In this document: one piece after another, positions 17,354-27,020 of the stretch | How positions within the stretch are numbered: position 1 is the stretch's first letter | Layout of the letters: the number at the start of each line of letters is the position of its first letter | Source of the DNA: Desulfurobacteriaceae bacterium | GTDB lineage: Bacteria; Aquificota; Aquificia; Desulfurobacteriales; Desulfurobacteriaceae | NCBI GenBank assembly: GCA_027068415.1 | Contig: JAMOTD010000009.1 | Span: 62,001 to 126,000 of the forward strand | Length of the DNA stretch: 64,000 bases | Direction of reading: 5' to 3' | Translations under genes and position numbers: made by a program | Notes under the pieces: generated by a model | Databases searched by the model: none | What the model was told of the DNA's origin: nothing | What the model saw: only the letters and a program-made list of their open reading frames with translations

Positions 17354-17886
17354 CTCCTTCCCCCGGCAAGCTTCTTTTCGTACTTCTTCTTAAGCTTCTT
17401 GTACTTTTCAAGGGCAAGCCTTCTCTGTAAGGGAGAGAGCCTGTCTATGAAGATTATTCCGTTAAGGTGGTCAAGCTCGTGCTGAAGGGCCCTTGCAAGG
17501 AGGCCTTCGGCTTCCATTTGAAACTCTTTCCCCTCAAGGTCTTGAGCCCTTATAACTACCTTTGCAGCCCTCTTTACCTTCTTCCACAAGCCCGGTAGCG
17601 AAAGGCACCCCTCCTCTGCAACTACTTCGCCTTCGGAGTGGATAATCTCGGGGTTAACAAAGATTAACTTCTCCTCGCCCTGCCTCTCCTTACCGGAGTT
17701 GAGGTCAAGGATAAAAACCCTCTTTAAGACCCCCACCTGATTTGCCGCAAGGCCTACGCCGCCCCTCTTGTACATCGTGTCAAACATATCCTCAACAAGC
17801 TCTTTGAGCTCGGCGTTAAACTCCTCTACTCTCTGAGCCTCTTTCTTTAAAACTTCGTCGGGATAAATTCTAATCTCCCTTTCCAT
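17350..17886 (-). CDS. def: Peptide deformylase
   Basis: Removes the N-formyl group from nascent proteins; metal-dependent. Seen: motif I GVGLAANQVG, motif II EEGCLSLPG with the metal-binding Cys, motif III QHELDHLNG with two metal-binding His and the catalytic Glu. The 178-residue length is normal and includes a Lys-rich C-terminal helix. AGGAGGT lies a few nt before the ATG, fixing the start even though this places the first 40 nt inside the preceding TIM-barrel gene. Confidence 0.96.
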   Translation of the reverse strand: MEREIRIYPDEVLKKEAQRVEEFNAELKELVEDMFDTMYKRGGVGLAANQVGVLKRVFILDLNSGKERQGEEKLIFVNPEIIHSEGEVVAEEGCLSLPGLWKKVKRAAKVVIRAQDLEGKEFQMEAEGLLARALQHELDHLNGIIFIDRLSPLQRRLALEKYKKLKKKYEKKLAGGRR

Positions 17887-18635
17887 TTAAACCTCCTGAG
17901 GGCTTCAAGGCTCTTCTCAATATCGGAAGCCCTTTTGTTTTCAAGGTTAAATATATAGTCAGCTTCTACAGTTTCTAATAGGTCAAAGAACTCCCCGAAA
18001 TTAAAGGTTCCGCTACCCAAGGGAGCGTGCTCGTCGGAGCCACCGCAGTTATCGTGAACGTGGAATTCGTAGATTCTCCCTTTAAAGGCGCCAATCCAGT
18101 CGGAGAGGGGGACTTTTGAGAAGAGGTTAAGGTGTCCCGTATCTATACAAACGCCGACCGAAGGGGGGAGCTCCCTCATAAAGTTCATAAGGTTCTCGGG
18201 GGTGGGGTCAAAGACGTTCTCAAGGGCAATTCTGCCTCCGAACTCCTCAGAGACGAGCCTGAAGGTCTCTACGGCTCTCTTAAACCAGCTATTGTAAAAA
18301 GGGTCAACCTTCTGAGGGTGGTAGCCGGTGTGAAAAACTATAACCTTTGCCCCCAGTACTTTTGAAACAGAAACGGTTTCGGAAAAGCGGCGCCTCGTAG
18401 CCTCAAGAACGTAGGAATCGGAAGCTCCGGGGTTGAGGTCAAGGAAGGGAGCGTGAACAGTTATGGGCCTATCCCCCACCTTCTCCTTTAAGAGGCCGAA
18501 GTCTTTAAAAGTAAAGGTATCAAGGAGCTCGGAAGTAAGCTGGACTTCAACGCCCATTCCCAAAGAGACAATCTCCTCAACCGAGGAGATTTCCCTAAGG
18601 AGCTCCCTCCCGGGCAGGTGGCCGACAATCTCCAT
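17847..18635 (-). CDS. Sugar phosphate isomerase/epimerase-like TIM-barrel protein
   Basis: A 262-residue protein of the xylose isomerase-like/AP endonuclease 2 fold. Seen: ITVHAPFLDLNPG, VIFHTGYHP, ALENVFDPTPENLM, VGVCIDTGHLNL and EFHVHDN, carrying the His, Glu and Asp metal ligands expected of the fold. It could be a sugar isomerase/epimerase or an endonuclease-IV-like enzyme; the motifs favour a general isomerase-like member and no substrate can be assigned. It is the first gene of the minus-strand operon running to the histidine kinase. AGGAGA precedes the ATG. Confidence 0.75.
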   Translation of the reverse strand: MEIVGHLPGRELLREISSVEEIVSLGMGVEVQLTSELLDTFTFKDFGLLKEKVGDRPITVHAPFLDLNPGASDSYVLEATRRRFSETVSVSKVLGAKVIVFHTGYHPQKVDPFYNSWFKRAVETFRLVSEEFGGRIALENVFDPTPENLMNFMRELPPSVGVCIDTGHLNLFSKVPLSDWIGAFKGRIYEFHVHDNCGGSDEHAPLGSGTFNFGEFFDLLETVEADYIFNLENKRASDIEKSLEALRRFKWKGRLEFIPTKF

Positions 18636-21408: not shown

Positions 21409-21738
21409 ATGGAGAAAGGAAGACTTGAGGACTTCTTCTCCCCCGAGGAGATTGGGGCCCTCCTGAGAAAGTATTCCCTTCCGGTAAACGCTTCGGCAAT
21501 GGTATGGAATGAATCGGGAAAGCTAGTTTACTACGACTTTATCACACCCTACTGCCGCGAAATCTACTCGGCCGCTCCCCAAAGGTGCGAGGAGGACAGG
21601 AAAAAGAGGTTTGAAAGGGCCCTAAAAGAAAAAAAGCCCTTCGTTCACAAGTGTTTTGCTCAAAAAATGAACTACGTAATTCCCCTAATAGTGAACACCA
21701 AACAGAGGGAGCTCTTCATCGGAATAGCCGGCGGCTGA
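21409..21738 (+). CDS. PocR-type sensor domain ORF, ending at TGA in frame with the GGDEF ORF
   Basis: As conventionally read, a 109-residue protein. It resembles the PocR ligand-sensing domain: a conserved Cys after Tyr (Cys49, in FITPYCREIY), a second Cys followed by acidic residues (Cys60), a third in KPFVHKCFAQ (Cys82), then hydrophobic strands VIPLIV and LFIGIAGG running straight into the TGA. PocR domains normally continue for a further 40-60 residues, so this ORF ends mid-domain. The next ORF is in the same frame with only Q-G between TGA and its ATG. The ATG here is 5 nt after the hisE stop. See the combined entry for the selenoprotein interpretation. Confidence 0.75.
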   Translation: MEKGRLEDFFSPEEIGALLRKYSLPVNASAMVWNESGKLVYYDFITPYCREIYSAAPQRCEEDRKKRFERALKEKKPFVHKCFAQKMNYVIPLIVNTKQRELFIGIAGG

Positions 21739-21769
21739 CAGGGAATGTACAGACTTTCCCGGCGGGAAA
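21736..21769 (+). promoter_or_regulatory. Candidate bacterial SECIS element (UGA plus hairpin)
   Basis: UGA at 21736-21738. TTTCCC (21755-21760) pairs perfectly with GGGAAA (21764-21769) around a GGC loop. The apical loop begins 22 nt after the UGA, and G is in its first two positions. This fits the published bacterial SECIS pattern as I recall it (loop of 3-14 nt, G in the first two loop bases, 16-37 nt from UGA). A competing pairing of GGGAA (21741-21745) with TTCCC (21756-21760) is also possible. The hairpin is entirely within coding sequence. Confidence 0.5.
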
Positions 21770-22620
21770 TTGAGAACATAAAGAGGCTCTCCAAAGAGCT
21801 AAACCTCAACTTTGACGAACTCCTCCTTCTGGCCGAAGAGGATCTGACCTTCGGCTGCCAAAGGGGATTTAACCCCAACCCGGTGGCGGTAAACAGGGAG
21901 AAACTCCTCCTCTTTCAGAGCTCCCTCTTCCTGAAAGCCTTTAAAAGACGCATTGAGCTAAAAAGAAGAAACGTTTCGTTAAAAACCCTTTTAATCCTTG
22001 ACAGAATAGAAGAGATTACCGGCGGCTGCTTTGAAGTGAAGGAAAAGCCGATAAATGACCGGGAAGTTAAAGCCCTCTTTGAGGCACTAAACGAGCTGGT
22101 AGAGTCGGTAAATTTGAGAATAAACTACGTAGTGCCGAGGAAGGTTAAGTACTTCGCATACAGAGACCCCCTTACAGACCTCTACAACCGCCACTACTTA
22201 AGGGAAGTAGTAAACAGGTTCTCGGGCGAGAGCAGGAACTTCCCGATAGGAGTAATCTTTATAGATATGGACAACCTTAAGGAGATAAATGATAACCTCG
22301 GCCACAAAACGGGAGACTTATACCTTAAAAGGTTAAGCGAGGTAATAAACGCCTCCGTAAGACACTCGGACTTCGTCTTCAGAATCGGAGGGGACGAGTT
22401 CCTCGTCTTGGTTCCCAAGTTAAAGGAGGGAGCGCTTGAGAAGATTGTCGGAAGAATAAAGAGAAACCTTGAAATTATAAACAGAAGCGAGAACCTGAAC
22501 CCTCCCCTTTCGGCCTCGGTGGGGGTGAGTATCTGGAAGAGCCCCGAAGAGCCCTTCCAGAGAGCCCTTGAATCTGCCGACTTCAGAATGTACAGGGAGA
22601 AGACTAACGGCAAACCATAG
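21745..22620 (+). CDS. GGDEF diguanylate cyclase ORF (probably the C-terminal part of a PocR-GGDEF protein)
   Basis: 291 residues if read from ATG 21745. The first 110 residues finish the PocR domain and form a helical linker. The GGDEF domain starts at DPLTDLYNRH (about 141), carries FIDMDNLKEINDNLGH and the intact catalytic motif RIGGDEF (about 213-219), and has an inhibitory-site RxxD (RHSD) exactly five residues before GGDEF, so it should be an active, product-inhibited cyclase making c-di-GMP. The ATG has CAGGGA directly abutting it and no ribosome binding site at normal distance, unlike most genes here, which suggests it is not an independent start. Its 3' end overlaps the convergent HIT gene by 17 nt. 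Confidence 0.85.
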   Translation: MYRLSRREIENIKRLSKELNLNFDELLLLAEEDLTFGCQRGFNPNPVAVNREKLLLFQSSLFLKAFKRRIELKRRNVSLKTLLILDRIEEITGGCFEVKEKPINDREVKALFEALNELVESVNLRINYVVPRKVKYFAYRDPLTDLYNRHYLREVVNRFSGESRNFPIGVIFIDMDNLKEINDNLGHKTGDLYLKRLSEVINASVRHSDFVFRIGGDEFLVLVPKLKEGALEKIVGRIKRNLEIINRSENLNPPLSASVGVSIWKSPEEPFQRALESADFRMYREKTNGKP

Positions 22621-25299: not shown

Positions 25300-26002
25300 T
25301 CCCTTCTACGGAGAGAGAGCCCTTAAGTACGACCTATTCTTTAAAACTGCCTTCGGAAGGGCAGTAAAGGAGCTTGAAGGGGAGCTCTTAGTAGAGGCGC
25401 TGAAGGAGTTTAAGGGAAGGGAGCTCCTTGAAGTGGGCTGCGGAACGGGAGTCTGGCTTGAATACCTTAAGGAGCAGGGTTTCAAAGAGCCGGTAGGCCT
25501 TGACATATCAAGGGATATGCTAAAAGTAGCGAAAGCAAAGGGGCTCAGAAAACTGGTTGAGGGGAGCGGAGCTCACCTCCCTTTTAGGAAGAGCTCCTTT
25601 GACGCCGTCTACTTTATGACCAGTCTTGAGTTCATGGTTGAGAAGAGAGAGGCCCTCCTTGAGGCGGCAAGAGTCTCAAGGAAGGCTGTCGTAGTGGGGT
25701 TTCTCAACTCCTTCTCCCTGCTAAACCTCTACAGGAAGGTTAAAGGGCTCTTCAAGGAGAGCGTCTACTCGGCCGGAAGTTTCCTGAGCAGAGAGGAGAT
25801 TTTAAAGATGGCAAGGTGGGTGGGAGAGGTAAGCAGGTACTCCCTGAGGGTGGAAAGTTTTAAGACAACCCTTAATTTTTCCGTTGACGGTTTTGTAAAC
25901 CCGAAAGTTGAGAGACTGGTGGGGCAGGAGCTCCCTACAGGAGGGTTCGGAATAATCAAGTTCAGGGTGATTAAGAGAGATGGAGCTGGTAAAGGAGATT
26001 GA
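25289..26002 (+). CDS. Class I SAM-dependent methyltransferase
   Basis: 237 residues, with the SAM-binding motif I LLEVGCGTGVWLEYL, motif II acidic VGLDISRDML, and DAVYFMTSLEFM as motif IV (Methyltransf_11 type). The substrate is unknown. It begins at TTG 25289, overlapping nurA by 11 nt, with GGGAGG upstream, and its end overlaps mnmH by 23 nt. The three genes are evidently co-translated, but no functional link can be shown. Confidence 0.8.
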   Translation: MGSNPFYGERALKYDLFFKTAFGRAVKELEGELLVEALKEFKGRELLEVGCGTGVWLEYLKEQGFKEPVGLDISRDMLKVAKAKGLRKLVEGSGAHLPFRKSSFDAVYFMTSLEFMVEKREALLEAARVSRKAVVVGFLNSFSLLNLYRKVKGLFKESVYSAGSFLSREEILKMARWVGEVSRYSLRVESFKTTLNFSVDGFVNPKVERLVGQELPTGGFGIIKFRVIKRDGAGKGD

Positions 26003-27020
26003 GTTTGAAGAGGCCTATAAGAGAGGGTTTGCCTTCGTTGACGTAAGGACTAAGGAGGAGTTTGAGGAGTTCAGGATTCCCGGAGCCTACAACGTTCCCC
26101 TCTTCACAAAAGAGGAAAGGGAAAAGGTTTCAAAGGTTTACTACGAAAAGGGGGAGAAGGAGGCAAGGCTCTACGCCCTTGAAATAGTTAGCCCGAAACT
26201 CCCCCGGATAGTCAAGGAAATAAAGAAAATCAAGGAAAAGGAGAAGAACGTTGCCGTATACTGCTGGAGGGGAGGTTTAAGGAGCTTAGCAGTTGCGACA
26301 ATCTGCAACCTGACGGGAGTACACGTCTTCAGGCTAAAAGGAGGCTACAGGGCATTCAGAAATTACATCTTAAGGCGAATAGGGGAAATTCTGAAGGATA
26401 AAAAGGTAATCGTCCTCTACGGCCCTACGGGTGTTGGGAAGACGAGAATTTTAAGGGAGTTAAAAGAGGAAGGCTTCCCGGTTATTGACCTTGAAGGCCT
26501 TGCAGGGCACAGGGGCTCGGTCTTCGGGGGAATAGGACTTACCCAGCCCAGCCAGAAGATGTTTGACGCCCTCGTCTGGCAGGAGCTTGAGAGGTTAAAG
26601 GAGAGCCCGATAGTGGTGGTGGAGGGGGAGAGCAGGAAAATCGGAAAGCTCTTTATACCAGAACCCCTGTGGAAAAAGATGGGCGAGGGAGTTAAGGTTC
26701 TACTGGAGCTCCCCTTAAGCCAGAGGGTAAAGATTTCCATGGAGGACTACGGAGTGGGACAATTTCCCAAAGAGACCTACCTTGAAGCCCTCTTGCGGAT
26801 AAGAAAGATACTGGGAGACGAGAAGTACAGGCAGATAAAGGAGCTGATAGAGAAAGAGGAGTACCCTGAAGCGGTAAAGGAGCTCATGGTCAACTACTAC
26901 GATAAGCTCTACAGCCGCTCAATTCCCCAAACTCAGGTAAAACTGCAGGCAAAGGACTACGAGGAGGGGAAGGAGAAGTTTAGGGAGCTCCTAAAGGGCT
27001 ACCTTTCTCCCTCTGAGTAG
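25980..27020 (+). CDS. mnmH: tRNA 2-selenouridine synthase
   Basis: MnmH (SelU, YbbB) converts 2-thiouridine at the wobble position of some tRNAs to 2-selenouridine, using selenophosphate. Seen: an N-terminal rhodanese domain with FVDVRTKEEF and catalytic Cys in VYCWRGGLRS (about residue 95), the P-loop GPTGVGKT (about 146-153), and the family block DLEGLAGHRGSVFGG followed by PSQKMFD. The 346-residue length is normal. Its presence implies that the cell makes selenophosphate, which matters for the selenoprotein proposal about 3.4 kb upstream. The 3' end overlaps a convergent gene by 22 nt. Confidence 0.93.
   Translation: MELVKEIEFEEAYKRGFAFVDVRTKEEFEEFRIPGAYNVPLFTKEEREKVSKVYYEKGEKEARLYALEIVSPKLPRIVKEIKKIKEKEKNVAVYCWRGGLRSLAVATICNLTGVHVFRLKGGYRAFRNYILRRIGEILKDKKVIVLYGPTGVGKTRILRELKEEGFPVIDLEGLAGHRGSVFGGIGLTQPSQKMFDALVWQELERLKESPIVVVEGESRKIGKLFIPEPLWKKMGEGVKVLLELPLSQRVKISMEDYGVGQFPKETYLEALLRIRKILGDEKYRQIKELIEKEEYPEAVKELMVNYYDKLYSRSIPQTQVKLQAKDYEEGKEKFRELLKGYLSPSE

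Follow-up and report, generated by a model that had tools for sequence, protein, structure and literature searches.

Does the TGA in the middle of locus 21409–22620 separate two genes, or does it encode an amino acid of a single protein? The locus lies on the forward strand of the window, as we call the whole 64-kb stretch of DNA analysed here, from a thermophilic vent bacterium of the Desulfurobacteriaceae, in which Rfam annotates no RNA. Under the standard code the locus splits into one ORF of 109 residues and another of 291. When TGA is translated as a residue, the frame contains one internal TGA, at 21736–21738 (codon 110), and gives a read-through product of 403 residues ending at a TAG terminator. 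Internal stops are usually a sign of gene decay or of sequencing error. Here, from comparison of sequences, we think it very probable that the locus is one selenoprotein gene, belonging to a new selenoprotein family, and that its UGA would be translated as selenocysteine (Sec). We favor this reading because the two ORFs share a frame, the UGA is conserved, Sec exchanges with Cys among relatives, a hairpin follows the UGA, and sel genes are present.

The extent of the whole gene is supported by Pfam matches and by orthologues that share its UGA in 10 other genomes. Residues 8–139 of the product (21430–21825) match the PocR sensory domain (PF10114) with 29.9 bits, above the curated cut-off of 23.9, and retain the domain cysteines 49, 60 and 82; a confident AlphaFold model also supports this assignment. 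Residues 250–402 (22156–22614) match the GGDEF diguanylate cyclase domain (PF00990) with 126.6 bits against a cut-off of 23.8. As in known GGDEF diguanylate cyclases, the catalytic GGDEF motif (residues 327–331) and the RxxD inhibitory site (R318 and D321) are intact, and both are invariant among the family homologues; the T. maritima GGDEF structure resembles the domain closely (TM-score by target length, 0.8). The predicted activity of this PocR-GGDEF protein is synthesis of c-di-GMP. Neither ORF is complete by itself. The first alone matches positions 1–93 of the PF10114 profile, and the read-through product positions 1–129; the second alone has GGDEF as its sole Pfam match. An earlier note on this DNA had described a PocR-type ORF and a GGDEF ORF in one frame, split by this TGA and each incomplete alone, with the GGDEF and RxxD motifs intact, and our analysis bears out all of this.

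The gene and its UGA occur in 11 of the 22 Desulfurobacteriaceae genomes, from three genera (3 of 4 genomes in g1, the window's genus, all six in g2 and both in g5), the proteins being 47–70% identical to the window copy. Each of the 11 carriers has exactly one in-frame stop, which is invariably a TGA in this position and is flanked by homologous sequence, more than chance would give; TAA or TAG at codon 110 was found in none of them. No such PocR-GGDEF gene was found in G021, g3 or g6, and no relatives of the protein were found in viral contigs. Across 136 genomes of the phylum, PF10114 matched only this family. In a scan of 84,980 species, the matches retained besides Thermovibrio sp. S141_83 and a Desulfurobacteriaceae MAG were essentially to the GGDEF part.

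Both genomes of another genus, g7, encode an uninterrupted homologue (L017 and L018) in which Cys occupies the site (GIASGCQG). In one of these, G018, the gene order is hisI-hisE-gene-HIT-PBP-nurA-methyltransferase-mnmH, the same as around the Sec gene. In the window, mnmH (selU, tRNA 2-selenouridine synthase) occupies 25980–27020, 3.4 kb downstream, and the order is shared by the Sec carriers compared and by one Cys genome. The TGA/Cys alternation that the earlier note had proposed to seek in relatives does exist, then, with TGA in 11 genomes and Cys in both of g7, these two orthologues from a single genus being the only ones with Cys opposite the UGA. The gene tree leaves undecided whether Sec or Cys came first, including whether the g7 Cys is derived. 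The Cys form has lost Cys49, Cys60, Cys150 and some 35 residues after the site, and has extra Cys near position 82. The homologue encoded by the four genomes of genus g4 is distant, and its residue in this position is Ser or Ala; the hisI-to-mnmH neighbors are missing in both g4 genomes compared.

Canonical PocR domains are different. We aligned 23 from other genomes, 22 of which align at the Sec110 column; the residue there is Gly in 22/22, in 21 of them within a GQ motif, so that Sec110 stands in place of the Gly of this motif. Cys at this site in PocR generally is rejected by this column, and the Gly-Gly-Cys-Gly that the earlier note ascribed to PocR homologues was wrong, given Gly in the canonical domains and Ser or Ala in those of g4. 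It follows that the Sec/Cys exchange is peculiar to the PocR-GGDEF family of Desulfurobacteriaceae. The note's selenoprotein call stands all the same, on a basis other than a PocR cysteine: the UGA in 11 genomes, the two Cys orthologues, the sel genes, and a SECIS-like hairpin with silent covariation.

This hairpin, UUUCCC-GGC-GGGAAA, is found at 21755–21769 (forward strand), with its apical loop at 21761–21763; it emerges from folding and alignment, fits the bSECIS rule and resembles the selD hairpin. It begins 17 and ends 31 nt past the UGA (nt 20–34, counted from the U of UGA). The 13-codon segment that starts five codons after the UGA is more stable than codon-preserving shuffles (mean z –2.11 over the 11 genes); 82 other segments of the same genes, shuffled likewise, average –0.12 (sd 0.40, minimum –1.12). 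By dinucleotide shuffling, the window's own hairpin is unexceptional (z –1.0). Given the alignment and no structure, RNAalifold places UYUCCC-GNN-GGGARA after the UGA, and 97% of the hairpin cells across the alignment are paired. Pair 21:33 is C-G in seven sequences and U-A in four, a compensatory change in which both bases are silent third positions; the covariation is confined to this one base pair, which may have changed just once or twice in evolution. The bSECIS rule (PMC13188914) calls for G in the first two loop positions, 16–37 nt from the UGA, a stem of ≥4 bp, and an energy of ≤ –7.5 kcal/mol. All 11 sequences have the loop and spacing of this rule, with an apical C-G[G/U]N-G and a spacing of 22 nt; the energies are borderline, at –7.8 kcal/mol for the window (48 nt) and –7.28 for the consensus. 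Similar hairpins follow the UGA codons of selD in the same genomes (CCC-GGUC-GGG) and of FdhA in two relatives (GGCC-GGUCU-GGCC).

Of the sel genes that the earlier note wished to see confirmed, the window's genome carries selA, selB and a selD with its own TGA; selC, encoding tRNA-Sec, was found in 20 of the 22 family genomes, and not in the window's draft assembly. The selC region of a congener, G020, matched nothing when searched against the entire draft. In that congener, selC has a PHP gene on one side and radA on the other, and adjoins a cluster comprising tRNA-Thr, Tyr, Met and Gly and leuD; radA and the PHP gene were absent from the 90% of the window's draft examined by tblastn. Contig C33 of the window's genome (L046) starts inside the tRNA-Met of this cluster and continues with tRNA-Gly and leuD in the same order; read most simply, this means that both selC and radA probably fall in the assembly gap. 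One carrier, G006, has an incomplete assembly in which neither selB nor selC was seen. The selD gene contains a UGA both in the window's genome (L360, contig C31:2171–3097) and in 20 other family genomes, and its hairpin is strongly conserved. In a non-exhaustive search, selD was the sole other UGA-containing selenoprotein gene found in the window's genome; a screen for others against some 400 kb of G019 and two loci returned mostly antisense shadows and nothing else convincing. Formate dehydrogenases with an in-frame UGA (L170 and L171) were confined to G015 and G009; their nearest counterparts in the window's genome have no UGA.

How do other explanations of the locus fare? That it is a decaying gene or a sequencing error is what an internal stop would ordinarily suggest, and conservation has already refuted it. 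An error at 21736 is excluded because the same TGA codon recurs in 11 genomes with homology on either side, and decay is contradicted by the lack of a further stop in any of them, by catalytic motifs that do not vary, and by the comparison of G000 with G020, in which many silent codon differences flank the UGA on both sides and 70% protein identity is kept. The earlier note had likewise argued that the gene is not decaying. Could the locus instead encode two proteins, the TGA terminating a PocR fragment of 109 residues and a GGDEF protein being re-initiated at the in-frame ATG 21745–21747? The standard code does give two ORFs, and an AGGG does precede this ATG. It does so by only ~2 nt, and the note was right that the second ORF has no well-spaced ribosome binding site. 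The codon concerned is ATG in two of the ten relatives and TTG in two others, making ATG in just 3 of 11 genomes with the window included. PocR homology and invariant residues run across the UGA, the break would fall inside a strand, and the Cys orthologues are one uninterrupted protein. We reject this ATG as the start of a second gene, and regard the two-protein explanation as very improbable.

Nor do we give much more than passing credence to the idea that the UGA is read through in some other way, by a near-cognate tRNA or by leaky termination, and specifies a residue that is not selenocysteine. The missing selC in the assembly is the point in its favor. Against it stand the bSECIS-type hairpin after the UGA, resembling that of selD, the Cys aligned with it in orthologues, and the presence of selA, selB and a UGA-containing selD. 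With SelB/SECIS selenoproteins such as SelD and FdhA of Desulfurobacteriaceae, the gene has in common an in-frame UGA, Cys orthologues, a similarly spaced hairpin of the same loop type, and sel genes.

If the locus is indeed a selenoprotein gene, it would work as follows. SelB would deliver Sec-tRNA(Sec) to the ribosome, and the hairpin just 3' of the UGA would direct decoding of 21736–21738 as selenocysteine, residue 110, in a core strand of the PocR domain. This assignment draws on TGA in 11/11 clade orthologues and Cys in two syntenic-family orthologues. The product would be a sensor diguanylate cyclase composed of PocR, a long coupling helix, and a GGDEF domain with an intact product-inhibition site. 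AlphaFold models it confidently (mean pLDDT 91.2 for the whole protein and 92.8 for residues 1–150), and places residue 110 within strand 101–113, so that a protein ending there would have a truncated sensor fold. Cys82 (codon 21652–21654) is at a turn before strand 86–96, which precedes strand 101–113; from this order, Cys82 and Sec110 may be close together. A search of the PDB for folds like the PocR part gave weak PAS-like matches, the best with E 0.014.

Cys82 is invariant in 17/17 aligned homologues. Cys49 (21553–21555), Cys60 (21586–21588) and Cys150 (21856–21858) are each invariant in the 11 Sec proteins and missing from the Cys orthologues. Among the five positions with a thiol or selenol, 82 and 110 are the only two that all 13 proteins, Sec and Cys forms together, retain, and a Sec110–Cys82 pair or shared metal centre is therefore favored. 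Sec110 and Cys82, perhaps with Cys49, Cys60 and Cys150, could form a selenenyl-sulfide or a metal centre and so report on redox or chemical state. Either would switch c-di-GMP synthesis by controlling the GGDEF domain through helix 218–250 (22060–22158), which links it to the sensor part in the AlphaFold secondary structure and whose coupling role is putative. We suggest tentatively that Sec110 acts with Cys82 in redox or metal sensing, the role that the earlier note had proposed for Cys49, Cys60, Cys82 and Sec110; the nature of the signal and the enzyme activity are equally tentative. With similar reserve, at somewhat less than even confidence, we propose that the protein may sense redox, metal or selenium state by means of its Sec and exert direct control over c-di-GMP synthesis, which would make it the first selenoprotein second-messenger enzyme; it might also be gated by selenium supply, as the UGA precedes the output domain.

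A variant of this proposal makes the last feature the main one: the UGA would chiefly tie GGDEF output to selenium supply, and c-di-GMP would report selenium status. The UGA does lie upstream of the entire output domain, and mnmH, a selenium-using tRNA enzyme, is nearby in the carriers compared. But in G018 the same gene order is found around the Cys form, which cannot act as such a switch, and the position of the UGA alone is weak evidence because many selenoproteins lose their C-terminal part when selenium is lacking. We consider the variant unlikely, and continue to prefer a Sec-based sensor.

The earlier note knew of no described selenoprotein of this type, and the lists available agree. 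None of the 119 families or subfamilies of prokaryotic selenoproteins in a 2026 inventory includes a PocR or GGDEF protein, nor does the deep-Sep list, and no NCBIfam selenoprotein model matches the protein. In the literature searched, no paper brings the PocR domain and selenocysteine together, and no diguanylate cyclase with selenocysteine was found. The sole suggestion of one concerns Shigella dgcQ and dgcN, genes with internal stops from which full-length product was seen, and for which selenocysteine was raised as one possibility (PMC11327459). There it was speculation on mutated genes, whereas here the UGA is conserved across genera, is followed by a hairpin, and has Cys orthologues.

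Most of the bacterial selenoproteins on current lists are metabolic enzymes or thiol-redox proteins. If Sec is indeed conserved in the sensor domain of an enzyme of c-di-GMP synthesis, the use of selenium would extend to intracellular signaling. The Sec site would also offer a direct way to learn what PocR domains sense, while the gene would illustrate how standard annotation splits such a UGA gene in two. Elsewhere in the window, the protein encoded at 17847–18635 shows a weak match, below cut-off, to the cobamide-remodelling phosphodiesterase CbiR.
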